Source of the DNA: a virus
IMG/VR virus record: IMGVR_UViG_3300017708_001677
Span: 1-35,426 of that record
Strand: one strand, 5' to 3'
DNA: 35,426 bases
The translations under genes were made by a program, and so were the position numbers. Positions 1 through 33,282 of this stretch are shown here, piece after piece (the stretch's first letter is position 1; every line of letters starts with the position of its first letter). A model generated the notes under the pieces. That model was not told the DNA's origin, did not search any database, and saw nothing but the letters and a program-made list of their open reading frames with translations.

Positions 1-669
1 CCCTTCAATGTGATATTCTTAGATGAATGCGACAACCTGACACAAGAAGCACAGTCGGCTCTAAGACGCATCATGGAGAAATACAAGAACACCCGATTTA
101 TTTTATCCGGTAACTACCCGCACAAAATAATTAGTCCGGTGCTTGACAGGTGCGCTATTTCTAATACCAGATTTAAACCAATCAATGAAGAGGACATGAC
201 AACCTATCTTGATTCATTGGGCTTCAATATTGGCTACAAAGCATTACTAATGATTAGTGAAGCGTCAAGTGGTTCTATGAGAAAGGCTCTCAATATTCTT
301 TGGACTTTGACCCGTATTCCCACAGAGGTTAAGGAGGAAGATGTTGAAGAATATATTTCAACATTAAATCCAATACAAGCAAAATATATGCTTGGAAAAA
401 TTATTCAATGTCATAAGAATAAAGATAAGGTTCACCAACTAAGTATGGAGTTAGATAGGTCTATTGATGATTTAGCAGGGCGAGGTATGAGCGGTGGAGA
501 AATCCTACATTCAATTTACAACCTGACAACAGACGAAGATGACCCAATGCCCCGTGCGCTAAAGGAAGATATTTTGAAATCACTTGGCGAGGGATTATAC
601 TACGCATCAGTTTCACAAGATGATATACTGGCAGTCAAATGTTGGTGGCGAAAGGTGATGATAGAATGA
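1..669 (+). CDS. Replication factor C small subunit, C-terminal part (gene cut by window edge)
   Basis: Clamp-loader ATPase that opens the sliding clamp and loads it on primed DNA for the viral PolB. The reading frame is open from base 1 and shows 222 residues. Visible are the Walker B motif LDECD, the RFC helix that follows it (AQSALRRIMEKY), a sensor 1 segment (FILSGNYPHK) and the arginine-finger region, which reads DRC instead of the usual SRC. A helical lid and collar domain follow. Archaeal RFC small subunits are about 320 residues, so roughly 100 N-terminal residues including Walker A lie upstream of the window. The stop overlaps the next start by ATGA, so it heads an operon with three small genes. 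The family is clear; DRC is a mild oddity that keeps the arginine. Confidence 0.9.
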   Translation, partial: PFNVIFLDECDNLTQEAQSALRRIMEKYKNTRFILSGNYPHKIISPVLDRCAISNTRFKPINEEDMTTYLDSLGFNIGYKALLMISEASSGSMRKALNILWTLTRIPTEVKEEDVEEYISTLNPIQAKYMLGKIIQCHKNKDKVHQLSMELDRSIDDLAGRGMSGGEILHSIYNLTTDEDDPMPRALKEDILKSLGEGLYYASVSQDDILAVKCWWRKVMIE

Positions 670-1283: not shown

Positions 1284-3899
1284 ATGCGTGAACCACTATT
1301 GATTGTTGATGTTGCCGCAGTCGGTGATACTAAAGACTGGGCGACGGTGTTGAGGGTCAAGAAGCGGGATGGTTCAAGTCATGTTGTTAGGATTGTTGGT
1401 TGTCAGCCTAAGTTTTGGACTGCAAAGCCTAAAAATTATCATCCTCCACTTACGAATCTTCCTTGCATCAAGTCCATTAAGCCGAGTGATAAAACTACTA
1501 TTCAAGACGAACCTCTAATGGAGGTTTGTGTCAATTCACCATTTGAGATAAGAGAAGTTAGAGATTATTTTTATCCTCACTATTCGGCTGATGCCGCTTG
1601 GTCATCTTTGGTTAGATGGATTTACGGTTGGGAAGCAGTTATTGAAATTGATAATACAAAAGACTGGAACAACCTAAGACCAATCAATATTCACAAATCC
1701 GATGTTCCGGCAAGCGACTTCAACCTTGACTTATGGTATTGGGATATTGAAACAGAGGATTGTTTAGATACAGAGAATCCAACTGGCCGAGTTGTTTCTA
1801 TTGCATTTTACGATGAGAAAACTGGAATACATGAAATTGGAACTTGCTCGCCAACTTCCGAGAGGATGGTTAGAAGGTTTATGTCCTCACAAGAAGCGTT
1901 ACATTCAGTTGTTGAACATACTAAACCAATCGAGCCTATTGATGCCGATAAGATATTTGTTAAAAGTTTTGATAATCCAGACCTTGATGCCAGAGAAGCC
2001 GAACTTTTCCGATGGTTTCATTCAAGATTGAATCACTACAACCCCGATGTAATAGCAGGTCAAAATATCAAAGGCTACGATATACCCTATATGTATAACA
2101 GGGCTAAGATTCTCAAAAGACAAGGACTCAAAGTACCTAACCTAACCTACCTCAAACGCCTACCACAGTTTGATACTAAGATAGCCTACGCTGAACAAGT
2201 GCAAGGAACTGCGGCTACAACAGGTGCGGCTTCATTGTCTTGGATGGCAACTAATACACTTGGTTATGGTAAAGTGCCGAGAAACAGAATAACTGACTTG
2301 ATGGTAAAAGACCCAATGATGTTAGCCGTCTATAACGCATGGGATAATGTTGTAGCGGCACGATGTATGGAAGTCTTAGATTTACTCCCGTTCTATATTA
2401 TGAAAACTGCGTATCACAATAGCACCCTACACAAGAGCCACAGTAATATGATGTTGGTTGAAGATATGATGGGTCATTTGCTATGGAGTCAAGATATTAT
2501 CATGCCTTCCGCTAAAGTGGTCGCTGACAATATGCCTGACGGAGGTATTGAGCAAGGTGGGTTTGTTATGGAAGCACCTATCGGAGTTTGGAGAAATGCG
2601 TTTGAGATAGACAACTCAATGGAATATCCATCAGCAATTATTACAGGTAATTTTTCACCCGACACCAAAGTAAATCCGGCTGACTATCCCAACGGCTATC
2701 CATTTCCTATAACTAAAACTCAAGGCGGAAGAATATACCGCAGGGATATAGTCGGTATCATGCCAACCGTTCTTAGAGAACTTGCATCAGCCAGACAAGA
2801 ACTCAAATCGCAGATGAAAACAGAGAAAGACCCTAAGCGGCTTATGATTTTAGATAGGCAACAGAGAGTTATGAAAGAAAATATGAACTCTTGGTATGGA
2901 GTATTGGGGTCGGGAAGAACTGAAAAAACAAAAAACAGACCATTTAGACTGGCTGACCCCGAAATTGGCTCGGATATTACCGATACTGCCCGACGACATA
3001 ACGACTGGAACAAGAATTATATCAACAAAAGAACGCTATGGTTCTGTAAAGAAGGAGTATATACCCACAAAGACTATATACCCCCATCTCATGAGGGTAT
3101 GGAAGTCCGGTTCACGACGCTATATCAGGACACCGACTCATGTAAGGTAGCAATATCCAACCACGATGAGATAGAAAACAAGATTAGACCGTTCACAGAG
3201 CGAGATATTATGGATATGGCGGAGATACTTTGTAATGAATTGAATGTATCTTTTGATGATTTTGTCAAAGAATGCCTAAATGTGGATAAAAATGAGTTTT
3301 TCAATATCAAACCCGACGCATATTACAAGAGATATTTCCAATGGGGAGTCAAAAAGAGGTATGCTTACCTCGATTATAACGATAAGCACGGCTTTAGAGG
3401 CGTTGAAATGAGGCGGTCATCAACACCGGAGGTAGTAAAAACGGTTCAACAAGAGATGTTTAGTGCTATCTTAGATGGGGCAGATAGAACAGAGATAGGT
3501 AAATTACTAAGAAAACAAGTTGAGGATATGAAGAACCCTGACATAACCCCCTCTATGGCCTTCGGACAACCATACGGTATCAAGAAAAAAGGCACATTCG
3601 CCTACAATGCGGCCATGTGGAGTAATGAAAACCTTGACACAGAGTTTGATTTAGGCGATAAGCCATGTATTTACTTCGCTAAGTCAAGTAAGAAACCACT
3701 TCCAAGTAATCGAAGAGTAGCAATAGAATGGGGAGATTCACCGGATGACTACGATGTAGTTATTGATAGAGATATGTCAATACAAACTATGTTTGCTGAT
3801 AGTAATTCATTTGCCGCTATACTGGGGGCGTTAGGCACTAACTGGCAACGATGTATGTCGGGTGTTGGTGTGTCATCTATGGGAGAATGGTTTTCATGA
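1284..3899 (+). CDS. polB: Family B DNA polymerase with 3'-5' exonuclease
   Basis: Replicative DNA polymerase, 871 residues. Exonuclease motifs: Exo I DIET (D154, E156), Exo II NIKGYD (N261 to D266), Exo III YNAWD. Polymerase motifs: A is DNSMEYPSAI starting at D443 (in place of DxxSLYPS), B is ENMNSWYG around N535-G539, C is YQDTDS with D616 and D618. The KKRYAY motif lies between C and the thumb. All catalytic acids are present, so both activities should work. There is no intein. The ATG at 1284 is 25 nt after a TATA box and has no Shine-Dalgarno, consistent with leaderless translation. The stop overlaps the next gene as ATGA. Protein-primed features are not evident; with RFC nearby this is most likely an RNA-primed, clamp-dependent enzyme. 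Confidence 0.97.
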   Translation: MREPLLIVDVAAVGDTKDWATVLRVKKRDGSSHVVRIVGCQPKFWTAKPKNYHPPLTNLPCIKSIKPSDKTTIQDEPLMEVCVNSPFEIREVRDYFYPHYSADAAWSSLVRWIYGWEAVIEIDNTKDWNNLRPINIHKSDVPASDFNLDLWYWDIETEDCLDTENPTGRVVSIAFYDEKTGIHEIGTCSPTSERMVRRFMSSQEALHSVVEHTKPIEPIDADKIFVKSFDNPDLDAREAELFRWFHSRLNHYNPDVIAGQNIKGYDIPYMYNRAKILKRQGLKVPNLTYLKRLPQFDTKIAYAEQVQGTAATTGAASLSWMATNTLGYGKVPRNRITDLMVKDPMMLAVYNAWDNVVAARCMEVLDLLPFYIMKTAYHNSTLHKSHSNMMLVEDMMGHLLWSQDIIMPSAKVVADNMPDGGIEQGGFVMEAPIGVWRNAFEIDNSMEYPSAIITGNFSPDTKVNPADYPNGYPFPITKTQGGRIYRRDIVGIMPTVLRELASARQELKSQMKTEKDPKRLMILDRQQRVMKENMNSWYGVLGSGRTEKTKNRPFRLADPEIGSDITDTARRHNDWNKNYINKRTLWFCKEGVYTHKDYIPPSHEGMEVRFTTLYQDTDSCKVAISNHDEIENKIRPFTERDIMDMAEILCNELNVSFDDFVKECLNVDKNEFFNIKPDAYYKRYFQWGVKKRYAYLDYNDKHGFRGVEMRRSSTPEVVKTVQQEMFSAILDGADRTEIGKLLRKQVEDMKNPDITPSMAFGQPYGIKKKGTFAYNAAMWSNENLDTEFDLGDKPCIYFAKSSKKPLPSNRRVAIEWGDSPDDYDVVIDRDMSIQTMFADSNSFAAILGALGTNWQRCMSGVGVSSMGEWFS

Positions 3900-4495: not shown

Positions 4496-5719
4496 ATGAG
4501 AACGACAATAGAAATAATGAAGCAAGTTGTAAGAGATAATGGCGGAAATATTAGCGAAGAGGATTACCTCAAGGCTATACAAGAAGCGTGCATAGCGGAA
4601 GGAAGAGATAGTAGCATAACTTCACTAAAGAGTAATGCTTTCTCTGCAAACAGAATGCACAAAGCAGGTATAGTTAGAGTTTCCATTGGTAAAGATAAGC
4701 AAGTATGGGAAATTGAAGCAATTAAAGCAACCCTTGAAGGTCGCAGAGTTGAATCAACCCCTGCACCAGTTGCACATCAATATGTTGAAGCACCAAAGGC
4801 TATTACACCAAAGGCTATTACACCAAAGGCTACGCCTCAAGGTGGAGTATTTTACGGCATACCAAAGCGACACCCTGACGAGTTTGAGGCTCATGTTCAA
4901 ACCATGATACCAACTCCAAGAGGCTTTGTTGAGTCCGATAGACAAGAGTTTAGACTAATGGCTATGTGCTACCAAGAAACTTTGAAAGGCAACTCCCCTA
5001 ATTCTCACATGATTTTAGAAGGACCGAAAGGTTGCGGCAAGTCTATGTTGGCTCAAGATTTTTACGGCCACATCAACACACCACTTCTTCAAATTAATAT
5101 GTCCGATGGTATTACAGAGGACACATTTATTGGCTCAAGAACCATTGTTGATGGTGATGTAGTATTCCAAGATGGAGTCCTAACTCTTGCTATGGAGTAT
5201 GGACTCGGACTTCTTGCTGATGAATTGAATGCGGCAAGAGAGGCTTGTCTAATTGCTACACATGCCGCTATGGATAGAGGCACTTTGGTTATTGGTGAAG
5301 ATAACAACAGAGTAGTCAAGGCTAAGAATGGTTTTCAAATTATTGCTACCATGAACCCACCGGAAGATTATGCCGGTGTCAATGCTATGAACCAAGCAAC
5401 CAAAGACCGTTTTACTATGAACCTGACATTCGACTACCTCAAAGAGGATAAAGAAGTTGAAGTTGTCATTGGTCAAAGTGGCTTTGATGATGAAGATACT
5501 ATTAGAGGCATGGTCAAGGTCGCCAATGACTTGAGGCAACTCAAGAAAGAAGGCTTGCTTGAAACCGATACTTCAACAAGAACACTTGTTCAAATGTTTG
5601 GATTGATGAGTCAATTGTCCTTGAATGAGGCTATTGAATACTCTATGCTTGGCAAATACAATGCCGATGAGCGACCACACATTGAAGCGGCTTGCAGAGC
5701 GAGGCTTGCAGATTATTGA
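4496..5719 (+). CDS. MoxR/CobS-type AAA+ ATPase with N-terminal winged-helix-like region
   Basis: A 407-residue AAA+ ATPase of the MoxR/CobS class. Walker A is GPKGCGKS (G176-S183), Walker B is LLADEL (D242, E243), sensor 1 is in IIATMNPPEDYAG, and an arginine-finger segment DRFTMNL follows. Residues of about 1-75 look like a small helical or winged-helix domain. A linker carries PKAIT repeats encoded by 15-bp DNA repeats at 4791-4835. MoxR ATPases work with VWA-domain partners to remodel or insert metal into targets, and a VWA partner is encoded at 6826. I chose the ATG at 4496 since it follows AAGGAAGG; the longer frame from 4445 would start inside the TATA box. Cobalt chelatase activity is unlikely without other cobalamin genes nearby. 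In Acidianus two-tailed virus a MoxR ATPase and a VWA protein are also encoded, a useful comparison. Confidence 0.9.
   Translation: MRTTIEIMKQVVRDNGGNISEEDYLKAIQEACIAEGRDSSITSLKSNAFSANRMHKAGIVRVSIGKDKQVWEIEAIKATLEGRRVESTPAPVAHQYVEAPKAITPKAITPKATPQGGVFYGIPKRHPDEFEAHVQTMIPTPRGFVESDRQEFRLMAMCYQETLKGNSPNSHMILEGPKGCGKSMLAQDFYGHINTPLLQINMSDGITEDTFIGSRTIVDGDVVFQDGVLTLAMEYGLGLLADELNAAREACLIATHAAMDRGTLVIGEDNNRVVKAKNGFQIIATMNPPEDYAGVNAMNQATKDRFTMNLTFDYLKEDKEVEVVIGQSGFDDEDTIRGMVKVANDLRQLKKEGLLETDTSTRTLVQMFGLMSQLSLNEAIEYSMLGKYNADERPHIEAACRARLADY
4791..4835 (+). repeat. 15-bp tandem repeat, about 2.8 copies, in the MoxR linker
   Basis: CACCAAAGGCTATTA occurs at 4791-4805 and 4806-4820, with a diverged copy at 4821-4835. 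In frame it encodes PKAIT-type units in a linker, so its length may vary between strains without disturbing the frame. Confidence 0.85.
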
Positions 5720-5727
5720 GGCTCATA

Positions 5728-5790
5728 CCCGTTGCTAAATGGGGTTTTAGAGAGGGGGAGAGCAACGGGGTTCTCCTGACTCCCCCTCTC
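5728..5790 (+). ncRNA. Candidate H-type pseudoknot RNA element after the MoxR gene
   Basis: Two perfect stems interleave. Stem 1 is CCCGTTGCT (5728-5736) with AGCAACGGG (5761-5769), 9 bp. Stem 2 is GAGAGGGGGAG (5750-5760) with CTCCCCCTCTC (5780-5790), 11 bp. The order is a-b-a'-b', with loop 1 of 13 nt (5737-5749), no gap between the stems, and loop 3 of 10 nt (5770-5779). That is H-type pseudoknot topology; the stems could instead be alternative hairpins. It lies just after the MoxR stop and before the next promoter, so it may end or protect the MoxR transcript. A short pyrimidine-rich tail follows. Confidence 0.6.
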
Positions 5791-5801
5791 ACTTATTCCC
5801 T

Positions 5802-5810
5802 TAATATAGG
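5802..5810 (+). promoter_or_regulatory. Class I TATA box for the small coiled-coil gene
   Basis: TAATATAGG followed by the inverted repeat TAGGTG-GATATT-CACCTA (5807-5824). Box centre is 25 nt before the ATG at 5831, so the transcript is predicted leaderless. Confidence 0.65.
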
Positions 5811-5830
5811 TGGATATTCACCTAAGCAAT

Positions 5831-5992
5831 ATGACCGATAAAAGGATAGACCAGTTAGAAGCAAGGATAGAAGCATTAGAGGATTTGATAGTGAACATAA
5901 GAAAAGCACTTGACCCTAACAAGCGATACAAAGACTATGCTCAAAAGAAACTGAATGATATTTATGCTGAATCCAACTCGACACATAATTAA
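5831..5992 (+). CDS. Small coiled-coil protein
   Basis: A 53-residue protein starting MTDKRIDQLEARIEALEDL. I chose the ATG at 5831 because the TATA box centre is 25 nt upstream; a GTG at 5810 would lie within the TATA box. The first 30 residues show heptad-like spacing of I/L (IDQLEARIEALEDLIVNI), suggesting a short coiled coil for dimerisation. It overlaps the start of the RFC-like ATPase gene by up to 38 nt and lies between the MoxR and VWA genes. It may be a subunit or adaptor of one of those ATPases; function unknown. Confidence 0.65.
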   Translation: MTDKRIDQLEARIEALEDLIVNIRKALDPNKRYKDYAQKKLNDIYAESNSTHN

Positions 5993-6776
5993 GTCTGTAT
6001 TAACACCCTTAGAAGCGTGGTTAAACGCCCCTTCTAAGCCTTTGATTGTGTATGGGTATAGTGGAGTAGGCAAGACTGAAATTATCAGATTCTTGGCCTC
6101 TAAATACAACATAGAAGTTGAAACTACAATGAACCCAATCGCTTGTATTAACAATGCAAGACACCCTTCATTTGATGGTAATTACAGGCTCGCTTTGATT
6201 GAGAGTGCTGACTATCTAACAACCTCACAATACAGAGCGATTCTAACAACCGATAATCCACCGCCTTACATTTTAGAATGCCAGTTTCTTGAATCCATAC
6301 CATACAAACTTAGACAAAAATGTATGATTGTTGAGATACCCAAACCTGCCAAGCGATTCTTGATTGCAGGTCTAACGGAATTGAACCGCCATCTTGGACT
6401 CAACAGAGCCGATTCGCTAATTGAAAAAATTAGCGACAAGGCGGAGTCGTGGAGGTTAGCAACCTTTTGTTTAAAGTACGGTATTGAACCCAATAGACTT
6501 AGACCAACTGTACCTGACACAAAGCAACCGGAAGTCATTTTGACAGGGGGATATTCACATTCAACTTGCCACCCACTTTCAATTTTACAAATGGCGGTTC
6601 ACAATAAAGCGAATCCCAGTAAATGCTTAGAGGCACTTAGATTGTATTCTATGGCTTGGGAAATTGATGATTTGTCTAAGGTATCAAGGACTCTATTAGA
6701 GCAACTAAGAACTGAAACAACTTTCAAACCACCTTTCACCAAACGCAAACTCAAGGGGTCAAATAAACGCCTATGA
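5955..6776 (+). CDS. RFC-like AAA+ ATPase (possible clamp-loader large subunit)
   Basis: A 273-residue AAA+ protein. Walker A is GYSGVGKT (G34-T41); the Walker B position reads LALIESAD, with E/S replacing the usual DE; a sensor 1 TTDN and then a segment PYKLRQKCMIVEIPKP follow, which matches the arginine-finger/second-region pattern of RFC subunits. RFC large subunits from archaea are around 480 residues, so this would be a short version. It may be the partner of the RFC small subunit at the left end of the window. The degenerate Walker B suggests weak or no hydrolysis. ATG choices are 5955 or 5964; both overlap the previous gene. Another AAA+ family cannot be excluded. Confidence 0.7.
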   Translation: MIFMLNPTRHIIKSVLTPLEAWLNAPSKPLIVYGYSGVGKTEIIRFLASKYNIEVETTMNPIACINNARHPSFDGNYRLALIESADYLTTSQYRAILTTDNPPPYILECQFLESIPYKLRQKCMIVEIPKPAKRFLIAGLTELNRHLGLNRADSLIEKISDKAESWRLATFCLKYGIEPNRLRPTVPDTKQPEVILTGGYSHSTCHPLSILQMAVHNKANPSKCLEALRLYSMAWEIDDLSKVSRTLLEQLRTETTFKPPFTKRKLKGSNKRL

Positions 6777-6796
6777 TTTTCAATAGGCCGAACTGC

Positions 6797-6805
6797 TTAT
6801 ATAGG
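6797..6805 (+). promoter_or_regulatory. Class I TATA box for the VWA gene
   Basis: TTATATAGG followed by TGG; centre 25 nt before the ATG at 6826. A second TTAGGAC lies between box and start, as also seen at 4457 and 16371. Confidence 0.65.
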
Positions 6806-6825
6806 TGGTATGCTTAGGACTAATC

Positions 6826-9126
6826 ATGGCAGAGAACCAAACCCCCGCAAACCCAATGTTCGCAACTGATAAGAAAGCGGATATGAATGTATTTAATGAA
6901 GCAAGCCGACGCAGAGTAGCAATACACCTAAGCCGTATTGGTAAAGTATTGTCCGGTGAATTAGACGGCAAAGGTAGGTCAATTCAAAAGTTGGATATTA
7001 ACAACGGCAACCCATGTGCAACCGATGGTAATACTGTATGGCTGTCCTATCCTATTCTTCCTGATGTTCAAACTGCGGCAGAGAACCTTGTTATCAGTGA
7101 GGCTATCTTAGCCCATGAAGCGGCAGGTCATCTAAGATACACCAACTTCAACGCATGGAAGAGAATTGCTGATGCAATCAAGAGAGGCGACGACGACAGA
7201 CTCCTACATGACTTTGTGAACATTGTTGAAGATGCAAGAGTCAATTGGCTATTGGGTCAAGACTTCGCAGGTTCTAAGAAGCGTTTGGACTACACCCAAA
7301 GCCGTCTTATGGCTCAACACAAAGCAACTCTTGAAGGTAGAGTCATTGGTGACAATGAAGCCCCTAAACTTGGTGTTATTGCTATTGCTACCGAAGTCAT
7401 TTTGGCTATTCCTCACTTTGTCAATCACCCACAGGTAAATGCTATGATGGATGAGGCACGCCCACTATTTGCTGATGCTATTGCTTCCCAAGACACTTCA
7501 ACAGTCATTAAGAAAGCAAGAGTTATCTTGGAAATATACAGAACCCATTTCCCTGCCGACGAAACAAACGGTAGCGAGTATGGGGCTTCATCTTCACCGG
7601 AAGGCGAGGCTTTGTTTGCTGACGATATGAGCATGGATAAAATTACAGAGGCCGCTAACAACCAAAGAAAGATGAAGAAAGAAGCGGAGAAAGTTAGAAC
7701 CAAGAGATTCAAGAAAATGGAAAGGCCAACAGAGGGCAGAGATATGTCCGATGCACCTGACAACAACTCCGATGATGAAGCGGCAAATGCCGTAAATGAT
7801 GCTCTAAACGGTGCTGACGGGCAAGGAAGCGAGATGGAGGGTGATGAGTCCTCCGACTGCAACGGAGGCGAAGGAAGCGACGGAGAGGGCGAATGCGAGT
7901 CCGGTTCTCAAACTGGCGACTCTTCAAGTGCTGACGGTCAAGGTGATGAAGTCTTTGGCGAGTCCGGTGATGAGAGCGTAGGTCAAGGCGAGAGTCAAGA
8001 CGCTTCTAATGTCGAAGGCGAAGTCATTACCGCCCCTGCTGAAACAGGCGAAAGCGGTTCTTATGGCGTTGGTAATGCTTTGGCTAAAACAGGCGAAGGC
8101 ACGGCTGATGTTCAAATGATGAGCGAGATGCAAGACATTCTTGATGAGTTAGGCGACATGATTGACTATGAAGTTGAATACATTGAAGAGAACGGTGATA
8201 TGTTCCAAGATGATTCGGGCGTTGATGGTGGAGGTCGCTTCTATGGTCATGATGTAGTAGTCGGTAAGAAGCATGACGAGTCCACCGACTTTAGCATGAG
8301 AACTGACGGATATGCAGTTGTTGAGCGAACCAACAGAGCCGGTATTAAGAGAATTGGTAAAGTCATGAAGAACTTGGTCAAGGGTGCTGATACAAGATTC
8401 AACTCCCATAAGAAAAGAGGTCGCCTTGACACCCGTAGGCTATGGGCGCATTCAACCTCCGATAAGGTATTCAAGACTGACAAAATTTCACCAGAATTCA
8501 AGGCTAATGTAGTTGTCTTGATTGATGCAAGCGGCTCTATGGGTTGCACTGTGCCAAGTGAGGATAGTAGATACAAGAGCCGTGCTGACTGTGCGGCAGA
8601 GGCGGCAATTACTATTTCTTCAACTCTTGAAGATATTGGGGCAACCTATGAGGTTGTTGATTTCTTTTCTCAATATGGCAGAGGTTCTAGGACTCAAGCC
8701 CCTAACGGTGAAACCCGAATTACTCAAAGAAAAAGATTTGATGAAACACTAAACTCCAAGACCAAAGCGGCTATTGCTAAGAGTCATGTTGGCCGTGAAA
8801 ATGCTGACGGCTTTGCTCTAAGATGGGCTATTGACAGAACTGCACACTTTGGTAATGAAGGTGCTAAGAGAATTGTCTTTGTTATTAGCGACGGTTCACC
8901 TGCCGGTCCAGCCCCACCACATCATTCTTCCCGTTCTCACTTAGTTAGTGTATTGAAAGAAGCGGAAGATGAAGATGTAATCATTTTCTCTGTTGGTATT
9001 GCAGGTATGGACACAAGCCGATACTATGGCAATCACGGCCATGCAAGCGTGTCTAATACCGCTAACTTAGCCCAAGACATTCTCTTGCCATTAAAGGCAT
9101 GTTTGAAGAAAGCACTACGAGCGTGA
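6826..9126 (+). CDS. CobT-like protein: zincin-like N-terminus, acidic middle, C-terminal VWA domain
   Basis: A 766-residue protein, likely partner of the MoxR ATPase. Near the N-terminus HEAAGH (H97-H102) followed by NIVEDARV (N132, E135, D136) looks like the metallopeptidase-type domain known from some VWA proteins. Residues of about 300-430 are very acidic and rich in Gly/Ser/Asp/Glu, as in CobT. The C-terminal VWA domain has the MIDAS motif DASGS (D567, S569, S571) and a later SDGSPAG. CobT binds CobS in cobalt chelatase, but related pairs serve other tasks; in Acidianus two-tailed virus the VWA protein works with a MoxR ATPase. Start at 6826 is set by the TATA box 25 nt upstream. Whether the HExxxH site is catalytic is unknown. 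Confidence 0.85.
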   Translation: MAENQTPANPMFATDKKADMNVFNEASRRRVAIHLSRIGKVLSGELDGKGRSIQKLDINNGNPCATDGNTVWLSYPILPDVQTAAENLVISEAILAHEAAGHLRYTNFNAWKRIADAIKRGDDDRLLHDFVNIVEDARVNWLLGQDFAGSKKRLDYTQSRLMAQHKATLEGRVIGDNEAPKLGVIAIATEVILAIPHFVNHPQVNAMMDEARPLFADAIASQDTSTVIKKARVILEIYRTHFPADETNGSEYGASSSPEGEALFADDMSMDKITEAANNQRKMKKEAEKVRTKRFKKMERPTEGRDMSDAPDNNSDDEAANAVNDALNGADGQGSEMEGDESSDCNGGEGSDGEGECESGSQTGDSSSADGQGDEVFGESGDESVGQGESQDASNVEGEVITAPAETGESGSYGVGNALAKTGEGTADVQMMSEMQDILDELGDMIDYEVEYIEENGDMFQDDSGVDGGGRFYGHDVVVGKKHDESTDFSMRTDGYAVVERTNRAGIKRIGKVMKNLVKGADTRFNSHKKRGRLDTRRLWAHSTSDKVFKTDKISPEFKANVVVLIDASGSMGCTVPSEDSRYKSRADCAAEAAITISSTLEDIGATYEVVDFFSQYGRGSRTQAPNGETRITQRKRFDETLNSKTKAAIAKSHVGRENADGFALRWAIDRTAHFGNEGAKRIVFVISDGSPAGPAPPHHSSRSHLVSVLKEAEDEDVIIFSVGIAGMDTSRYYGNHGHASVSNTANLAQDILLPLKACLKKALRA

Positions 9127-9132
9127 TACAAA

Positions 9133-9339
9133 ATGAAATACGATACGATAGCAATAAGAATGCAAACTGATGAAGGGCTACCAATAGATATTCCTAACAT
9201 ACAGGAATTGGCTCTGTTGATAGCAACGGAGGTTCACAACCTAATGAAAGAACAAGGCATTGAGGCGGGCTTAGAAGTCCTCTATGGGGGCGTTAAATCT
9301 AACACTTGGAATCAAGCCATGAAGGAGGTTGAAGCATGA
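9133..9339 (+). CDS. Small hypothetical protein
   Basis: A 68-residue acidic protein (MKYDTIAIRMQTDEG start) six bases after the VWA stop, and overlapping the next gene by ATGA. A strand (YDTIAIRM) followed by helices (IQELALLIATEVHNLMKEQ) suggests a compact alpha/beta fold. It is almost certainly co-transcribed with the VWA gene. No family recognised. Confidence 0.65.
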   Translation: MKYDTIAIRMQTDEGLPIDIPNIQELALLIATEVHNLMKEQGIEAGLEVLYGGVKSNTWNQAMKEVEA

Positions 9340-10439
9340 GTCATTTACCTTTCAAAAGTGCAAGTCAAGTTTTGATTGACGGCATCACCATTCAACACCC
9401 ACATGCAATTCAATATTTTCAAAAATTGGATAGACCAGAAATTGACAAAGACCACTACAATTCTATCTTGGCTGAAAGGGCATGGTTGCCTAATCCAGTT
9501 GTTAGAATAACTGCCCGTGCGCCATTAACTTACAATACTAAAGGAATTACTTTTACAGATGAAGATAACGAGATTTTTTCTTCCGCCCAGTCTTGTGTTG
9601 TTGGTTTTTTGTATGAAGAGATTGAAGGTGGATTGAACCAAGAATGGGCTATTGTGTTGAATAGGCCGGTGGACTCAACAGAGGATATTTACTTGTCATT
9701 TCTTAGATTATACGATGAAGAAGCGACTAAAACAAATTTTGTTCAAAAGAGAATCGGTAGTGAATCAACAATAATGCACACCTTATATCCAAGTCCAGTT
9801 GATGATGATTCAACTCAAGAGTTGTATATGAAAGACTGCGAAGCAAGATTTGTTGAATGGCGGTCATATCACAAACAACTTCAAGGGTCAGATTTTCTTG
9901 CCCGACTATTGTATGCAATAGGTCATTACTACAAAGACACCGACAGAGGCTACGATACTTTAGGATATGACTTCAACACATTCTTAGAATCATTTGATTG
10001 TGTAATTTCTAATTATGCTCGCAATATCTTAGGCCGGACTCAAGTAATAACATGGAATTTTTCTCCTAACTATTTCTCGGAATCAAGAGTTGAGTCAAGT
10101 GGTGGGTATGATTCATCAGGATTAATGAACGGCAAGTGGAAGAATATGCAACCTATTAGGCGACCAAAAATGAAACTAGGAGAACCAGTCGGAGGCGATA
10201 CGCAGGTGGGCGGGGAGTCTATAAATGTTTCTACACCTATAACCCCAATTCATTTAGATAAAAGACTACCTATTAGAATGAGGCACAACAAAGCAACGGG
10301 TGATTATTGGATAAACCAAGTAAGATGCACCGTATGCGGGCAAAGGGTTATAGTGTCGCTTAATGAGCGTGATGTGCCTCCGCCCACGCTAAAGTTGAAG
10401 TGTCCTGAATGTAGGAAAAAAGGGCTTTTGATTAAGTAG
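9336..10439 (+). CDS. Unknown protein with C-terminal zinc ribbon, last gene of the VWA operon
   Basis: A 367-residue protein. The N-terminal 270 residues match nothing I recognise. They have mixed alpha/beta character and several aromatic-rich segments (AIGHYYKDTDRGYDTLGYD). The last 40 residues carry CTVCG and, about 23 residues later, CPEC, a clear CxxC-CxxC zinc ribbon. A Gly/Ser-rich linker with possible disorder joins the two. The ATGA overlap with the preceding gene makes it part of the VWA transcript, so it is a candidate third partner of the MoxR/VWA pair, for example a substrate adaptor or DNA-binding subunit. That role is inference from position only. Confidence 0.7.
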   Translation: MSHLPFKSASQVLIDGITIQHPHAIQYFQKLDRPEIDKDHYNSILAERAWLPNPVVRITARAPLTYNTKGITFTDEDNEIFSSAQSCVVGFLYEEIEGGLNQEWAIVLNRPVDSTEDIYLSFLRLYDEEATKTNFVQKRIGSESTIMHTLYPSPVDDDSTQELYMKDCEARFVEWRSYHKQLQGSDFLARLLYAIGHYYKDTDRGYDTLGYDFNTFLESFDCVISNYARNILGRTQVITWNFSPNYFSESRVESSGGYDSSGLMNGKWKNMQPIRRPKMKLGEPVGGDTQVGGESINVSTPITPIHLDKRLPIRMRHNKATGDYWINQVRCTVCGQRVIVSLNERDVPPPTLKLKCPECRKKGLLIK

Positions 10440-10494: not shown

Positions 10495-10767
10495 ATGAAG
10501 ATACCTAAGAGCATTCGGCAAGCAATTAAAGATAAACTGGCGACTGAACAAAGACCATTGGGTGCGGGCGTTATTGCTGATGCAGTAAATAACTCTCAAA
10601 AATACCAAAGGACACCAAGACAAATGAGTTTCATTCTCAAGCGTTTAGCAAAAGAAGGCGAGATAAAGTCTGTTGAGATTTCTAAGAACGGCATTAACCG
10701 TCATGGCAACGCAAGAGTTAGATGTGAATACATGGCGGTGGGTGTTGATGACACGGTGGCTAACTAA
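10495..10767 (+). CDS. Small winged-helix DNA-binding protein
   Basis: A 90-residue basic protein. Helices (PKSIRQAIKDKLATEQ, GAGVIADAVN), then RTPRQMSFILKRLAKEGEI as recognition-type helix, and a two-stranded wing (KSVEISKNGI, ARVRCEYMA) match a winged helix-turn-helix. It is the best candidate for a virus-coded transcription regulator in the window. The palindromic TATA element before it could be its own operator, an inference. The ATG at 10495 fits both the TATA spacing and the AGGAG site. The end overlaps the next gene by 20 nt. Confidence 0.75.
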   Translation: MKIPKSIRQAIKDKLATEQRPLGAGVIADAVNNSQKYQRTPRQMSFILKRLAKEGEIKSVEISKNGINRHGNARVRCEYMAVGVDDTVAN

Positions 10768-13605: not shown

Positions 13606-15921
13606 ATGGCGGAGAGGCGTAGGCGTTTTCTTGATTTGTTTAGAAGAAACCGAATAGAGCCAACCCCAATCCAAGAGCCGGAGTTAGACACAAAAGCATT
13701 AGCCTCTTTGACAAAAATAGGTATGCAAACTGCGGGCAAAGGCTACCATAAGAAAACTGCTACACCCTCCATTGACTACACATTGATTAAGCAAATCAGC
13801 CTACAAAATGAAGTCATTAATGCTATTCTAAGAAGAACTGTTGATGACACATTAGGTAATGGTTATAAGTTTCATTTAGAAGATGGGGTTGAGCAAGGGA
13901 ATGAAAGAGAATTAACTACCCTTAGAGAATTTTTCAAAACGCCTAACCCTGACGATAATGGCGACGAATGGCTTGAATCGTTAATCTTTGACTTAGCACT
14001 ATTTGGTGATGCTTACTTAGAATTAGACGGTTCTAATGATACATCAAGCGACAATGGCGAGGACTGGAACTATGGCGGCAACCTTGTATCAATTTGGAAT
14101 ATACCTGCTGAAACTATGAGGCTTGTTCCGGCTAACAGGACACCCGCACCACCTGCTATGGCGTATGTTCAAACCATCAATGGTAAAAAGCGCAGGTTCA
14201 CATCTTCTAAGGTTCTTCACATATCAAAATACAAAGCAGGTCGAGGATATGGTTCTTCACCGATTGTTCCTTTGATGAATACTATTGCAGGTCATCTAAA
14301 CCTATCTAATTACATAAACGAATCATTTACTGGCACATTACCAAAGACGATTCTCAATGTTGGTGATGTTTCTAACGCTGAAATGAAATCAATGCTAACT
14401 ATGCTTGAGCAACAGTTGAGCGGTGGTAAATCGCCATTCGGTCTGGTGGCAGTCAATGGTGGCACAGGATTTCAAACAGTTAGATTACTTGACTCTATGA
14501 AAGATGGTCAGCATTTGGATTTACTTTATTATTACAGGGAAGAGATATGTGCAGTATTCGGCATACCTCCAATGAAACTCGGTTGGGTGCAAACTGGAAA
14601 AATGTCAAATCCCGAAACTCAACTGGACTCTTGGTATGATGTTGTTGAAGCATATCAATACAGGATAGAGTCTATGGTGAATCATAAGATACTACCATTA
14701 CTTCAAATTAGAGATTACAAATTCAAGTTTAATTCAATCCGCCCATCTAAACAAAGGGTCATGGCCGAAGTTGTTAGAGCGCAGGGTCAGGCAATAGCCG
14801 CCCTAAGACAAGAGGGAGTTATTAGTATCAATGAGTCAAGACACATTCTTGGACTTGAAGCATTAGATACAGATAATGCCGATGACCCATTTTTCTTATC
14901 ACCAAAATTGACCATAAATCAGCGTCAAGAAAGTTTTACAACTTTTTCGGAAAACTTTTCGGAAGCCCAAGTCGGCCATTATGACTATTGGGTTATGAAA
15001 GCCGATAGGGTTGAGAACGGACAGTTTGTATCTTGGAGAACTGAAAAGGGAAGATATGTTGGTCAGGTTTCATCGGTGATAACCTCCGGTGAAGTAGCAG
15101 TTGTTACTTCAAGTGGAGGACAAGAAACAATTGAAGCAAGTGAAGATAATGCAGTTGCCCGTGTTGTTGTTTATGTTGATAATGAAGATGGAACACATAG
15201 CCGTAGTGATAGAAGCGTGCCAGTTAGAGTATCTATGCTAAGAGTAATTCAAGAACCCGAAACAAAGCAGGTATCAGCAAAAGTTAGGAAAACACTATCC
15301 GAGAAAGCCAAGAAACATAATGAATCGGTTACTGCGCCAACTAAGAAAACTTCAACAAGAACATTAGTTGCCGTTTTTCGCAGGGGCGTAGGTGCATACA
15401 ATTCTAATCCTCAATCGGTGCGCCCTTCCGTAAGTAGTGCTGACCAATGGGCTTATGCAAGAGTCAATTCATTCTTGTATGCTTTGAAGAGAGGCAAGTG
15501 GAGGGGTGGCAAACATGACCAAGATTTATTCCCAAGAGGTCATCCACTATCAAGTAAGAAGTCTGTTGAAGATGAAGAAATAACAGAGGATATTATAGAC
15601 AAGAGAGCATTAACAACAAAAGATAGAACTCCACCACAGGGAGTTAGAAGTGCTTGTAAGACAGGAATAAAACTCTTTGAAGATGGTTACGGTGGGTCAG
15701 GGTTAGAAGGAACAACTGTCAAAGAGGCAAGAGCAATAGCACGGGGTACTCCGATAACTGTTTTTAAGGCCAAGAAAATGATTAGATGGTGGGGAAGAAA
15801 CTCTCGATTTTTAGATGAGCCAAAAGATAGTCCGGCATGGACTGCGGCTATGCTTTGGGGAGGCAGAGCAGGTAAGTCTTGGGCTTCTAAGTTAAAGAGA
15901 GCATTAGATGCGGAGGAATAA
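13606..15921 (+). CDS. Portal protein with long C-terminal extension
   Basis: A 771-residue protein. Residues of about 40-440 match the HK97/PBSX portal pattern (LIKQISLQNEVINAILRRTV, DLALFGDAYLELDG, VLHISKYKAGRGYGSSPIVP, FGIPPMKLGW). Portals usually have 400-550 residues, so roughly 300 are extra. Residues of about 460-550 (YWVMKADRVENGQFVSWRTE and after) look like a small beta barrel of Tudor-like type. About 588-650 (AVFRRGVGAYNSNP, QWAYARVNSFLYAL) and 670-771 (TPPQGVRSACKTGIKLFEDG, WTAAMLWGGRAGKSWASKLK) resemble two small domains seen in other tailed-phage structural proteins, often with LWGG-AG-WA at the end. It forms the ring through which DNA enters and leaves the head. The tail domains may be internal head or maturation modules. 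Confidence 0.88.
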   Translation: MAERRRRFLDLFRRNRIEPTPIQEPELDTKALASLTKIGMQTAGKGYHKKTATPSIDYTLIKQISLQNEVINAILRRTVDDTLGNGYKFHLEDGVEQGNERELTTLREFFKTPNPDDNGDEWLESLIFDLALFGDAYLELDGSNDTSSDNGEDWNYGGNLVSIWNIPAETMRLVPANRTPAPPAMAYVQTINGKKRRFTSSKVLHISKYKAGRGYGSSPIVPLMNTIAGHLNLSNYINESFTGTLPKTILNVGDVSNAEMKSMLTMLEQQLSGGKSPFGLVAVNGGTGFQTVRLLDSMKDGQHLDLLYYYREEICAVFGIPPMKLGWVQTGKMSNPETQLDSWYDVVEAYQYRIESMVNHKILPLLQIRDYKFKFNSIRPSKQRVMAEVVRAQGQAIAALRQEGVISINESRHILGLEALDTDNADDPFFLSPKLTINQRQESFTTFSENFSEAQVGHYDYWVMKADRVENGQFVSWRTEKGRYVGQVSSVITSGEVAVVTSSGGQETIEASEDNAVARVVVYVDNEDGTHSRSDRSVPVRVSMLRVIQEPETKQVSAKVRKTLSEKAKKHNESVTAPTKKTSTRTLVAVFRRGVGAYNSNPQSVRPSVSSADQWAYARVNSFLYALKRGKWRGGKHDQDLFPRGHPLSSKKSVEDEEITEDIIDKRALTTKDRTPPQGVRSACKTGIKLFEDGYGGSGLEGTTVKEARAIARGTPITVFKAKKMIRWWGRNSRFLDEPKDSPAWTAAMLWGGRAGKSWASKLKRALDAEE
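15912..15916 (+). promoter_or_regulatory. Shine-Dalgarno site for the gp10-like gene
   Basis: GGAGG seven bases before the ATG at 15924, inside the end of the portal gene. It is an example of internal operon genes using ribosome binding sites while first genes are leaderless. Confidence 0.7.
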
Positions 15922-17119: not shown

Positions 17120-18844
17120 ATGGTGGACTTTGGCAAGGCCGTATTCTTAAATGATGATAAACTATTCAATGCCATAAAAGGTGATACGGAAGAGGCCGTA
17201 TTTGAATATAGAATGATTGTTCCTTTCAAGGTTGATAAAAACCTTGATGATGATAACTACAAGAAAGACGATGATGATGTAGTTGTCTATGGTCCGGTAT
17301 ATGTCGGAGATGAAGCCATGCTTGACCGACACAAGGAAATGGTTGAGCCTAAAGCAATTTTAGATTCTTGGAAATCTTACATGAAGAATCCTGTTATTCT
17401 ATACAACCATAGAAAGGACTACGGAGTTATCGGAGTAATGGAAGAAGTTGAGATGGGAAGTTATGAAGATGAGGATAGAAAAATCAACACAGTTATGGGT
17501 CGTGCAAGAATAGACGGTGGAGAAAAAGATATTGTTAGGAAGATTAGAAAGGGAATGCTTAGGTCATTCTCTATTGGTTTCATAGCAAAAGCCGCAGTAA
17601 AGGAATGTCCTAATGATAAGGAAGATGAATCTTGCTATGTTAGATTCACTAACATTGAATGGATTGAAACAAGCGTAGTTGATATTCCCGCTTCACCCAA
17701 TGCACTATTTGATGTTGAGAAATCTTTAGTATCTTACTCCGGTGATAAAGCCGAAATTAGAAACGATGTATATACAACTCCGGCAGAGGCAAGAGATAGA
17801 GCGGAAGAGATAGGTTGTTCCGGTATTCATGTTCATAGAGAAAATGGCGAAAGTGTGTATATGCCATGTGCAAGTCATGATGCTTACTTAGAAGCAACAG
17901 GTGAAGAGGTTAGTGGCTACAAACCTGACGAAGGCAAGAAAGGCGGTTGCGGGTGTGGAGGACACAGTAAAGAAACTGAAAAGTCAATCACTAACATTGA
18001 ACAAACGGAAGATACCTACATTGTTGAATTTACAAAAGACGAACCTATGCCAACTCCTAACGAAGAAATAGACCAACTGCGGCAAGAAATAGGAAGATTG
18101 AAAGAACTCCTTGACGGGGTTATTACCACCGATAGCGTTAATACCCATATAGAGAAGGAAAGTGGCATGTCTGAAGAGAAAATCTCCGATGAGATTGTTG
18201 AAGAAGTTGAAATTAAATCCGAAGAGGTTGATGTTCCTACCGAAGAACCTATTACCGTAAAAACCGAAGAGGTTGAGGAAGAAGAAGAGGTTGTTGAAGA
18301 AGAAGAAGTTGTCGAAGAGGCAACAGAGGAAGAAGCAACCGAAGAAGTTGTCGAGGAAGAGGTTGTTGAAGAAGCAACCGAAGAGGTTGTTGAAGAAGAA
18401 GCAACAGAGGAAGAAGAAGTTGTTGAGGAAGAAGAGAAAACTCTTGACTCCGAAGATGCAGTTTTGGAAGCAGTTGTGAAATCCGTTCTAAGTATGGAAG
18501 CAACTCTAAAGAATCTAACCGATAAACTTGACGAAACAGAATCACTAAAGAGTTTGATTGCAGAGAAAGAATCACTAATTGCATCTTTGACCGAAGAGAA
18601 AGAAGTTGCAGAGCAAGAAGCAGTAATTGAAGCAGAGGTCGGTAAAAGACTCGCTGAAAAAATGGCTGAACTCGGAATCAACAAAACCGCACCTGCGGCT
18701 GAAAGAAAAAGCCTATCGGCTGACATAACTCCACCTGAAATAAAAACTGGAACAACAAAGTATGACCCTATGCCGGAAGTAAGCAAGGGCATGGCTGGTT
18801 TGGGTTCTTGGCTCTCCGATAGAATTGAGAGCAGAGGACTTTGA
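17120..18844 (+). CDS. HK97-type prohead protease fused to a possible scaffold
   Basis: A 574-residue protein. Residues of about 40-205 are a prohead serine protease: H97 (ILYNHRKDYGVIG), S151 (RSFSIGFIA) and the EWIETSVVDIPASPNALF segment. Residues of about 215-265 carry a small domain with GCSGIHVH and YMPCASHDAY, seen in other phage structural polyproteins. A Gly/Cys patch (GGCGCGGHS) follows. About 380-445 is a run of Glu/Val/Thr, extremely acidic. About 455-520 is a coiled coil (KSLIAEKESLIASLTEEKEV), and the end resembles scaffold tails. Since the capsid gene lacks a long N-terminal delta domain, this C-terminal part may be the scaffold, cut off on maturation. Typical proteases have about 200 residues. 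Confidence 0.88.
   Translation: MVDFGKAVFLNDDKLFNAIKGDTEEAVFEYRMIVPFKVDKNLDDDNYKKDDDDVVVYGPVYVGDEAMLDRHKEMVEPKAILDSWKSYMKNPVILYNHRKDYGVIGVMEEVEMGSYEDEDRKINTVMGRARIDGGEKDIVRKIRKGMLRSFSIGFIAKAAVKECPNDKEDESCYVRFTNIEWIETSVVDIPASPNALFDVEKSLVSYSGDKAEIRNDVYTTPAEARDRAEEIGCSGIHVHRENGESVYMPCASHDAYLEATGEEVSGYKPDEGKKGGCGCGGHSKETEKSITNIEQTEDTYIVEFTKDEPMPTPNEEIDQLRQEIGRLKELLDGVITTDSVNTHIEKESGMSEEKISDEIVEEVEIKSEEVDVPTEEPITVKTEEVEEEEEVVEEEEVVEEATEEEATEEVVEEEVVEEATEEVVEEEATEEEEVVEEEEKTLDSEDAVLEAVVKSVLSMEATLKNLTDKLDETESLKSLIAEKESLIASLTEEKEVAEQEAVIEAEVGKRLAEKMAELGINKTAPAAERKSLSADITPPEIKTGTTKYDPMPEVSKGMAGLGSWLSDRIESRGL
18255..18440 (+). repeat. Low-complexity GAA/GTT repeat coding an acidic stretch
   Basis: Irregular repeats of GAAGAA, GTTGTT/GTCGAA and GCAACAGAG units within the protease-scaffold gene give Glu-Val-Ala-Thr runs such as EEEVVEEEEVVEEATEEEAT. 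It probably expands and contracts by slippage. Confidence 0.8.
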
Positions 18845-26463: not shown

Positions 26464-29400
26464 ATGCCGACTACGCTGACCGACCTTACTCCACCCATCG
26501 GCACACGGTCAGGGCTTCCATTTACGGCAGTATGGAGTGATGCTGATACTTCCGCATACACCGGAAATACAAACGACCCAATGAGAACAGATGCTACAAC
26601 TAATCTTTGGCAACAGGACTCTCAAACTGCACCCACCGCCAAGCCTCATGTTGTAGGCGGGGCAAATTTAGATTCATCAGAATTTATTGCTGAATACATT
26701 TCACTATCGAGTGGTAATGTTGTATTTCAAGGACAATTACTAAACATAACCTCTCCGGTTCTAAATTTTGGCACAGGTGATTTAGAATATGCTCAAATGA
26801 TGTTACATGAAGTCAATGGCAGATATGTTTCATCACGAACACAGCCCGTAGGAACTGTTCTAACATTTACCAAAGCAGGGAGATATAACACAAACGATGT
26901 TCAAGAATATGTTGGAGGAACAACCGGCAAGGGGCGACCTGCGAATCACACTTGGCATAGATTTAGTGCTGAAAGAGATGCAGTCCAAACATTGAATCAT
27001 GATTCATCATTACTTGAAGCACATGATGTATATGCGGGCAGATATACTGCGTTACAGACCGAAGGCTTTGTTGGTGAAGGAATAGTCCACACCACTAAAC
27101 TATGCCTTCCGAGTAATGGAATGGGTGCTACTTATGGAGATAATCACAATATCAAGTATGGAGTTTCACTAAACTCAAGTCCACTTGTTGCTAATTACCC
27201 ATCTTTGATGACAAGTGCCGGTGCATCTTTGGAAGATTCTTTTGTGATGTCAGCGCATTGGGCTATCAATATTCAATCACTTCAACCTATTCCCATCAAT
27301 AGCAATTCAGTTAATGGTAATTACAAAACAATTTCTCAACCAGACGGTTTAGGTGGTCAAACTACTTACAGCCACCCCCAAAGAGCAATACCACTAAATG
27401 AAACAATACAATACATAGGAACTAATGACTTTGTTAGTGATGCGAGCAATACACCAACCGGCATTAGCGACATGACATGGCGGCCACTTGGCCGACCTGA
27501 CTTAGGTAATTTATGTGTCATGGATTCATGCGGATTGATAGGATATGAGGGTGTTTTTACTGCAACTGCGTTTATGTCGGTATCGGAAGATGCACAGTCC
27601 GGTTGGTCGGGTTCAAATCAAGCAACATTTGCAGGTATCAATATTCAAGTCCATAGCGGAACTTCACCAAGAAGAAACGGTAAAGCCTATCGAACTCAAT
27701 TAACAGGTGATAGAGCATACAAGTATGGTAAAACAGGAAACTATGTCAAACCAATTACTGAATATTTGATGACAACAGGAAATCGTGATGCGGTTCAAGG
27801 TGCATCTTACTATGCAACAGACAACGATAGAAATGATAACCAGTCAAGATTTTTTACTGCGAGAACTGTTAGATTGACAGGTGGTGCAACAGCACTACCT
27901 CTAAATTCTATTGGTAATAGTGGAGGCGATATAGGGCAGAAAATACAAAACCCGAATGCGTTTATTCTTGGCGATAACGGACATTTAACAGGAGGCTCTT
28001 ATTCAAAGACGAGTCAGTTAAGTCAGGACTTTATGAAAAATATGATACCAACAAAAATACAGGTTATACCCGCATTAATTGGTCATGAACAGATAGATGT
28101 TGCGGCAGGGGATTTCCACCCAGATTCAAACCCTTTAAAATTTAACAAGCCTATGGTTGATTACCATGTTTTAGTTAGTCTTGCACCAAGAGATAGATTG
28201 AATGCAAAAGGAACTACCGGAGGACAAATCGGCACACCTACACAAAGAAATAATCCAGAGGCAAGAACATTTGCTGACCTAAATTTGAAAGATGAAGGTT
28301 GCTATATTTATCATGCCATATTTAGAATAGACCCAACATTAAGCAGAATTTTTGTTGATTCAGCAGATTCACTTAAAATAAATACTCTTGGTGATGAAAA
28401 TTGCCCTAAAAGTGTCATGCCGTCAGCATTTAATCTAATTCAAATAACGCCATTCAAACCAATAGCAAATGCGGGCTTTTCCCAAGTGCCGTTGTTATCG
28501 GGCGCAATAGAGGCAGGTGGCTTCTATCAACACGGAGGAATTAGTCACCATTGGTCGGCTGATGTTTTTAATGATGAATTGTTTGTTGCTACTGATGTTA
28601 TTGAAATGGCACATCTAAATTCACAAATCTATGGAACAGGACAAGTCAAAGCGGGCGGCAACGCTGCCGGTGCTGCTGCAATTCCTGACGGACCGGAAAT
28701 GGTGATTTTCAAATATTCACCTTCAAAAGACCCGTTCTATCCAACAAAGAAAATAGACCATTTGTTAGCAAGATGGTATTTAGGAACTTCATTGATTGGT
28801 GGAACAATACCAGTAAAGGCGGTTCAGTCTAATACCACATTTGACCTTTCACAGGCCAATGGTAATGATAAGGACAAAGTTAGACGAGTCAAACACCAAG
28901 ATACGGCAGGTTGGAGTATTCATGAATGGGTATTTCCACAGATAGAGGCTATGCGCTATCTTGGCGTTGAGAACAAGGCTTTCATGAAACACCCAAGACA
29001 TTCTCAAAATTCTTCTAATACACCAATGCTACACCCAACTCTTCATGTTGGAGATTTTCAAATTATGGAAGATGGAAGAATGAAGATATTGGCTATTCAT
29101 CGTGATAGGATTACAACTAATATAGATTATCCTTCACCGTTAATTGGTTATCCACCACAACCAGATATTGCAGCAAGTGGGCGTTGCCCTGACGGTTATT
29201 ACTATCACAATGGGGTATGCAAGCCAATAATTTCATCAAGACCAACAATACCTGCTGACACAAGCACTACACACTTTGACCCAATAATCGGTTTTGAGAT
29301 TACAACAAGTGGACCACCATTACCTAACACCGCTTCGGGATTACACTACATGGGAGGAATGTCAAACTTTGGCGAAGTGCCAACTTGGAATGCTATGCTA

Positions 29401-33257: not shown

Positions 33258-33262
33258 ATAGG
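33254..33262 (+). promoter_or_regulatory. Class I TATA box for the helicase gene
   Basis: TTAAATAGG followed by TGGG, centre 25 nt before the ATG at 33283. It overlaps the previous stop. Confidence 0.6.
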
Positions 33263-33282
33263 TGGGTCTTTTAATATATATT

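Follow-up and report, generated by a model that had tools for sequence, protein, structure and literature searches.

Genes for a CobS/MoxR ATPase, a zincin-like/VWA protein and its Zn-ribbon partner stand in fixed order beside the DNA polymerase and clamp-loader-like genes of a virus group

The 35.4-kb virus record IMGVR_UViG_3300017708_001677 (the window, that is, the whole stretch of 35,426 nucleotides that was analysed) encodes a CobS/MoxR-type ATPase, a zincin-like/VWA protein and a Zn-ribbon protein, and the three genes form a fixed cassette together with those of the family B DNA polymerase (PolB) and of clamp-loader-like proteins (Table 1). Viruses with a cobST pair have already been described widely; the new elements here are its strict embedding in a polymerase/clamp-loader block, the conserved Zn-ribbon partner and an altered metal motif. 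On function, we prefer a role in remodelling proteins linked to replication to one in virion assembly or in cobalt chelation, and propose, with slightly less than even confidence, that the cassette is a remodelling machine of the MoxR AAA+ type devoted to the replication of viral DNA.

The window encodes terminase, portal, HK97-type capsid and connector genes, in addition to PolB and RFC genes, and therefore belongs to a tailed virus. It probably infects marine archaea; the archaeal assignment comes from its RFC and PolB genes, which are of the archaeal type, the nearest named relatives of PolB being found in haloarchaeal viruses. The host is unproved because a scan of 84,980 cell genomes, with the CobT-like protein and PolB as queries, returned no relatives; searches performed with single proteins or near-identical alignments retrieved near copies only. 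Elsewhere in the window, the portal protein (13606-15921) has a long C-terminal extension and a weak DUF5824 match, and a 2158-aa protein with no PHROG matches (26464-32940), possibly a tail or receptor-binding protein, is encoded between glycosyltransferase and helicase genes. A DinG/XPD-like DNA helicase (33262-35040) carries a cysteine cluster that is a possible Fe-S site.

Table 1. Features of the cassette and of its surroundings in the window
Feature	Position	Strand	Basis
RFC small subunit, C-terminal part, cut by window edge	1..669	+	PHROG clamp loader E=2e-17
Family B DNA polymerase	1284..3899	+	PHROG 262 E=2e-56; Pfam DNA_pol_B
CobS/MoxR-type AAA+ ATPase, 407 aa	4496..5719	+	Pfam AAA_5 E=4e-24, CbbQ_C E=4e-9
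P-loop AAA+ protein, RFC clamp-loader large subunit-like	5955..6776	+	hhalign to HCTV-5 RFC-L
CobT-like protein, 766 aa: zincin-like N-domain, acidic linker, VWA/MIDAS	6826..9126	+	CobT_C, AlphaFold model, conservation
Zincin-like N-domain, residues 20-300	6883..7725	+	AlphaFold pLDDT 88, pTM 0.89
HEAAGH (HExxxH) motif, residues 97-102	7114..7131	+	conserved across PolB-selected lineages
NIVEDAR motif, residues 132-138 (NIVEDARV 132-139)	7219..7239	+	conservation
Acidic low-complexity Ser/Gly/Glu/Asp linker, residues 304-426	7735..8103	+	sequence; model pLDDT <50
VWA domain	8500..9123	+	CobT_C E=6e-9; model; conservation
MIDAS DASGS, residues 567-571	8524-8538	+	sequence
68-aa ORF before Zn-ribbon gene	9133..9339	+	tblastn: closest kin only (L002, L004, L005, L006)
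Zn-ribbon protein, 367 aa	9336..10439	+	reciprocal profile match of C-terminal ribbon
Ribbon CTVC...CPEC, residues 331-359	about 10326-10412	+	sequence
Small protein, weakly winged-helix-like, conserved downstream of cassette	10495..10767	+	survey of relatives

In 32 viral contigs with a relative of the CobT-like protein, the genes for the RFC small subunit (RFC-S), PolB, CobS, the RFC large subunit-like (RFC-L-like) protein and the VWA protein follow a single order wherever the contig reaches. Because this set had been picked by the CobT-like protein itself, the co-occurrence was retested on loci selected by PolB only, and the succession PolB, CobS, RFC-L-like, zincin-VWA and Zn-ribbon was found in all 27 loci with enough downstream sequence, more than chance would give. 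These loci represent 17 lineages, which differ from each other by more than 5% in PolB, and three further lineages, whose contigs end early, show the first three genes (20 lineages in total). A single locus, L252 (IMGVR_UViG_3300001683_000001), has about 3-4 kb extra between the RFC-L-like and zincin-VWA genes, unlike all of the others. A preliminary description of this DNA, made from its sequence, had placed the 367-residue Zn-ribbon protein in the module as a partner and had called for a survey of co-occurrence in archaeal viruses; the 27 PolB-selected loci, all of which keep the genes, bear this out. Its list of parts had the right genes and coordinates but was incomplete, missing both the RFC-L-like gene, which sits between those for CobS and the CobT-like protein, and the 68-aa ORF.

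In each of the 15 loci inspected, the first conserved gene to follow that of the VWA protein is the Zn-ribbon gene. A tblastn survey had suggested that it was confined to near kin, a reading overturned by profile searches, in which profiles built from near kin find the gene, in its place behind the VWA gene, in far kin and vice versa through the C-terminal ribbon. The N-terminal part of the protein is variable in both length and sequence.

The assignment of the first cassette gene to the MoxR/CobS-type ATPases, already made in the preliminary description, is well founded, the product having the AAA_5 core, the Walker motifs (Walker A GPKGCGKS at about 5021-5044) and the MoxR-type C-terminal helical domain, together with a match to phrog_249 'porphyrin biosynthesis' (E=5e-42). 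Its profile matches the structures of Midasin, CbbQ, NorQ and CobS (E=3e-33 for CobS); the multi-module Midasin gives the top score, and CbbQ and NorQ also stand above CobS. The N-terminal ~105 aa of the viral CobS (4496-4810) are a conserved domain with invariant G, AG and W, for which Pfam and the PDB returned no matches; a winged-helix reading, tried for this region and for several small proteins, gave nothing above the cut-offs. Other phage CobS proteins have differing N-terminal extensions, weakly C2H2 zinc finger-like in SSU5 and weakly HTH-like in S-SSM5. As for the RFC-L-like product, it contains an RFC-type AAA+ module, and the profile of its family aligns with the RFC large subunit annotated in halovirus HCTV-5 (hhalign 97.2%, E=4e-11, the match reaching the AAA+ and lid part only) better than with the RFC small subunit (E=2e-7), with RFC subunits among the best PDB profile matches.

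The full-length model of the CobT-like protein is good for the N-domain and the VWA domain and disordered in the acidic linker. The VWA domain is of the MIDAS type, D567, S569, S571, D661 and D689 being invariant in 20 sequences, and its model is closest to the MIDAS domain of Rea1/MDN1 (Z about 20-22) and to the VWA domain of NorD (Z about 19-20), both of which are partners of MoxR-type motors. In the model of the N-domain, two helices bear HEAAGH and NIVEDAR. After realignment, the best eight PDB matches of this domain are all zincins, namely BepA (twice), a Zn peptidase, selecase (twice), an M1 aminopeptidase and MATCAP (twice), at Z of 3.7-5.8, below the clear range. A zincin fold is therefore likely rather than proved, as these Z-scores are modest and Foldseek found no significant match in the PDB; in a comparison with viral models, CobT-like proteins of phages and VWA proteins of haloarchaeal viruses come out best, including those of HCTV-2, HVTV-1 and HHTV-2. 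The N, E, D and R of NIVEDAR are invariant in a 20-sequence alignment and kept in the PolB-selected loci, and E135 is a candidate third metal ligand; in alignment A8, the HE..H/N..ED.R columns owe part of their invariance to the choice of rows, some of which had been retrieved by this motif, and the PolB-selected set is the fair test. The CobT-like protein with HEAAGH, NIVEDARV and a VWA domain with an intact MIDAS, as first described, has been confirmed, while its zincin-like domain stands on the confident model and the identity of the best matches, but with Z no higher than 5.8 and a motif that is not the canonical one.

In fact, the N-domain lacks the canonical zincin HExxH: HEAAGH is an HExxxH motif, one residue longer. 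The conservation of this form, one of the points raised by the preliminary description, was checked in the PolB-selected lineages and came out in favour of that description: 18 of the 20 have HExxGH, counting locus L230, which was missed by the pattern and reads HECAGHLAYT, and the remaining two have HExxH in the form HE(N/S)AHH. These two are nested inside the tree, and for this reason HExxGH is probably the older state in this virus group, later shortened, although the tree does not settle the matter. Locus L253, on the same contig as L217 (IMGVR_UViG_3300025759_000090), reads HANAHH, with Ala at the position of the catalytic-type Glu although the rest of the protein is intact, where its near relative L216 reads HENAHH; the change is either a natural variant or a sequencing error, and since this contig has Ala for Glu, catalysis by the zincin-like domain may be dispensable. 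Outside this group, the seven named phages reached without use of the motif (S-SSM5, SSU5, ICP2, BS162P1, HCTV-2, CRP-810 and FlyingTortilla) all have HExxH, followed by N...ED or similar, and tblastn of the whole CobT-like protein against named phages gave no matches. The sole cellular CobT examined, that of Cereibacter, is without HExxH.

Several known systems share parts of this architecture. A MoxR gene beside that of a VWA protein with an N-terminal metallopeptidase-like domain, as found here with the RFC-L-like gene intervening, has been described in group 2.2 jumbo phages, for which virion assembly with proteolysis was proposed in comparison with Acidianus two-tailed virus (ATV; Iyer et al., 2021, PMC7824862); the window differs in its archaeal-type replication genes, in the RFC-L-like gene between the two and the Zn-ribbon gene after them, in the HExxxH motif and in a context that is replication rather than virion assembly. 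The viral 'cobST' of the haloarchaeal tailed viruses HVTV-1, HCTV-2, HHTV-2 and Hardycor1 and of cyanophages (PMC8651126; PMC7911831) have the same pair and architecture, but HCTV-2 and cyanophage S-SSM5 carry HExxH, and no RFC-L-like or Zn-ribbon partner was seen there in the arrangement of the window. With p618/p892 of ATV the common ground is a viral MoxR ATPase and an interacting VWA protein; the ATV pair has no peptidase domain (PMC7824862). The closest solved folds belong to NorQ-NorD, CbbQ-CbbO and Midasin, in which a MoxR-type ATPase is likewise combined with a MIDAS-type VWA partner or domain, and whose clients are metalloenzymes or pre-ribosomes. We know of no evidence for a zincin domain in the VWA proteins of these three systems.

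The names CobS and CobT come with a function, and a chelatase role, in which the two viral proteins would be cobaltochelatase subunits that borrow the CobN of the host and raise the supply of cobalamin, has been published for haloarchaeal viruses (Liu et al., 2021, PMC8651126) and magroviruses (PMC10160649) and figures in many papers on auxiliary genes. As in the aerobic cobaltochelatase CobS-CobT, a MoxR-type ATPase is here accompanied by a C-terminal VWA domain of the CobT_C type, which matches CobT (9uka, E=1e-25; Cereibacter CobT, E=5e-21, hhalign 99.4%), and the CobS match reported above points the same way, although that profile scores better against Midasin, CbbQ and NorQ. The similarity to cellular CobT is limited to the VWA part: the N-domain profile reaches only 2.5% in hhalign against Cereibacter CobT, over a weak 61-column match, and the zincin-type motifs are absent from that protein, so that the viral N-domain appears distinct from the N-terminal region of CobT as far as profile comparison detects. 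At the place where the viral proteins have N..EDAR.N/E, the N-terminal region of Cereibacter CobT (L258:1981-3840) reads EAMEAARCEA; the region might descend from a common origin with the viral domain and have degenerated, a relationship to which the profile value lends no support. Furthermore, neither CobN nor ribonucleotide reductase was detected in nine related viral records of up to 83 kb, eight of which returned the control CobT_C, and no cobalamin genes were seen nearby. The lack of CobN and ribonucleotide reductase in these records, where a host CobN might nevertheless serve, and the presence of the zincin-like domain weaken the chelatase role, which we consider very unlikely, in keeping with the doubt about metal chelation voiced at the outset.

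A role in virion assembly or maturation would have the MoxR-VWA pair chaperone capsid or tail proteins and the N-domain process structural proteins, and it has precedents in p618/p892 of ATV, which act in tail development (PMC4124505), and in the proposal made for jumbo phages, whose zincin-VWA proteins are built alike (PMC7824862), so that the ATV-inspired assembly idea of the preliminary description was not new. In the window, the Zn-ribbon gene is followed at a distance of ~0.8 kb by the TerL gene, which speaks for such a role and against one in replication; several relatives, on the other hand, have no detectable match to this TerL within 8 kb, and the virus has a head maturation protease candidate of its own (17120-18844). 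The cassette is interleaved with PolB and clamp-loader genes rather than tied to morphogenesis genes, and this weakens the assembly role. The same holds far from this group: in distant phages the pair adjoins gp46/47 and clamp/clamp-loader genes, or DNA polymerase III alpha, or DNA polymerase, or lies, at some distance, between the DnaB and SSB genes. In a tally of 90 proteins encoded next to the pair in 16 dereplicated loci, which is skewed to T4-like phages, clamp loader, SbcCD and clamp are the commonest families besides CobS-type ATPases, and none of the top 25 families is a head or tail family; the authors of the Hardycor1 study likewise assign the AAA/vWA pair to a replication/accessory module. 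With the module inside an RFC-S/PolB/RFC-L block and replication genes as its distant neighbours, the suggestion of a function in virion assembly or genome release finds no support, and we regard assembly as rather improbable. Somewhat less improbable, but still unlikely, is that the machine serves host takeover or counter-defence, extracting and perhaps cleaving, at an early stage of infection, proteins of the host that are bound to DNA or act in defence. The early-gene position agrees with this, MoxR-VWA systems are reportedly present in biological conflict systems, and the variable N-termini of the Zn-ribbon proteins would fit changing targets; the strict co-conservation with the viral clamp loader better fits an internal viral client.

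For the preferred role in replication, the evidence is the gene order kept in the 27 PolB-selected loci, the RFC-S and PolB genes upstream, the neighbours in distant phages, the likeness of the VWA domain to Rea1/MDN1 MIDAS and NorD and of CobS to Midasin, CbbQ and NorQ, and the zincin matches, modest in score, of the N-domain; against it, neighbourhood is no proof of function, and many early viral genes cluster with replication genes. If the machine works in the manner of NorQ-NorD, CbbQ-CbbO and Midasin, the CobS ATPase would form a hexamer on which the VWA protein docks, with the MIDAS metal gripping an acidic residue of the client, and ATP hydrolysis would then extract the client from its complex or open it. 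The zincin-like N-domain would bind the client and might cut it once exposed, and the Zn-ribbon protein could be the adaptor that selects the client or anchors the complex on nucleic acid. The likeliest clients would be proteins of the replication fork (clamp, clamp loader, polymerase or a roadblock) or proteins on the host DNA that are removed to make way for viral synthesis.

A bolder proposal, to which we give little credence as a whole, takes the HExxGH domain for an active metallopeptidase whose ligand spacing is non-canonical, owing to a helix bulge at the metal site. Supplied with clients by the MoxR ATPase and directed by the Zn-ribbon protein, it would dismantle or cleave complexes of the clamp or of the clamp loader at the fork, and viral 'cobST' would generally be mislabelled replication machines. 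If this were true, viral 'cobST' in general would have been wrongly counted as vitamin B12 genes. The metal motif, longer by one residue, is in any case a natural test of how strict the geometry of the zincin site is. In many reports, CobS and CobT of viruses are counted among the auxiliary metabolic genes for vitamin B12; at least in this group, the data argue instead for a MoxR remodelling machine with a protease-like domain, locked into the replication block together with a clamp-loader-like gene and a Zn-ribbon adaptor, turning a loose annotation into a hypothesis that is testable in cultured haloarchaeal viruses and cyanophages.
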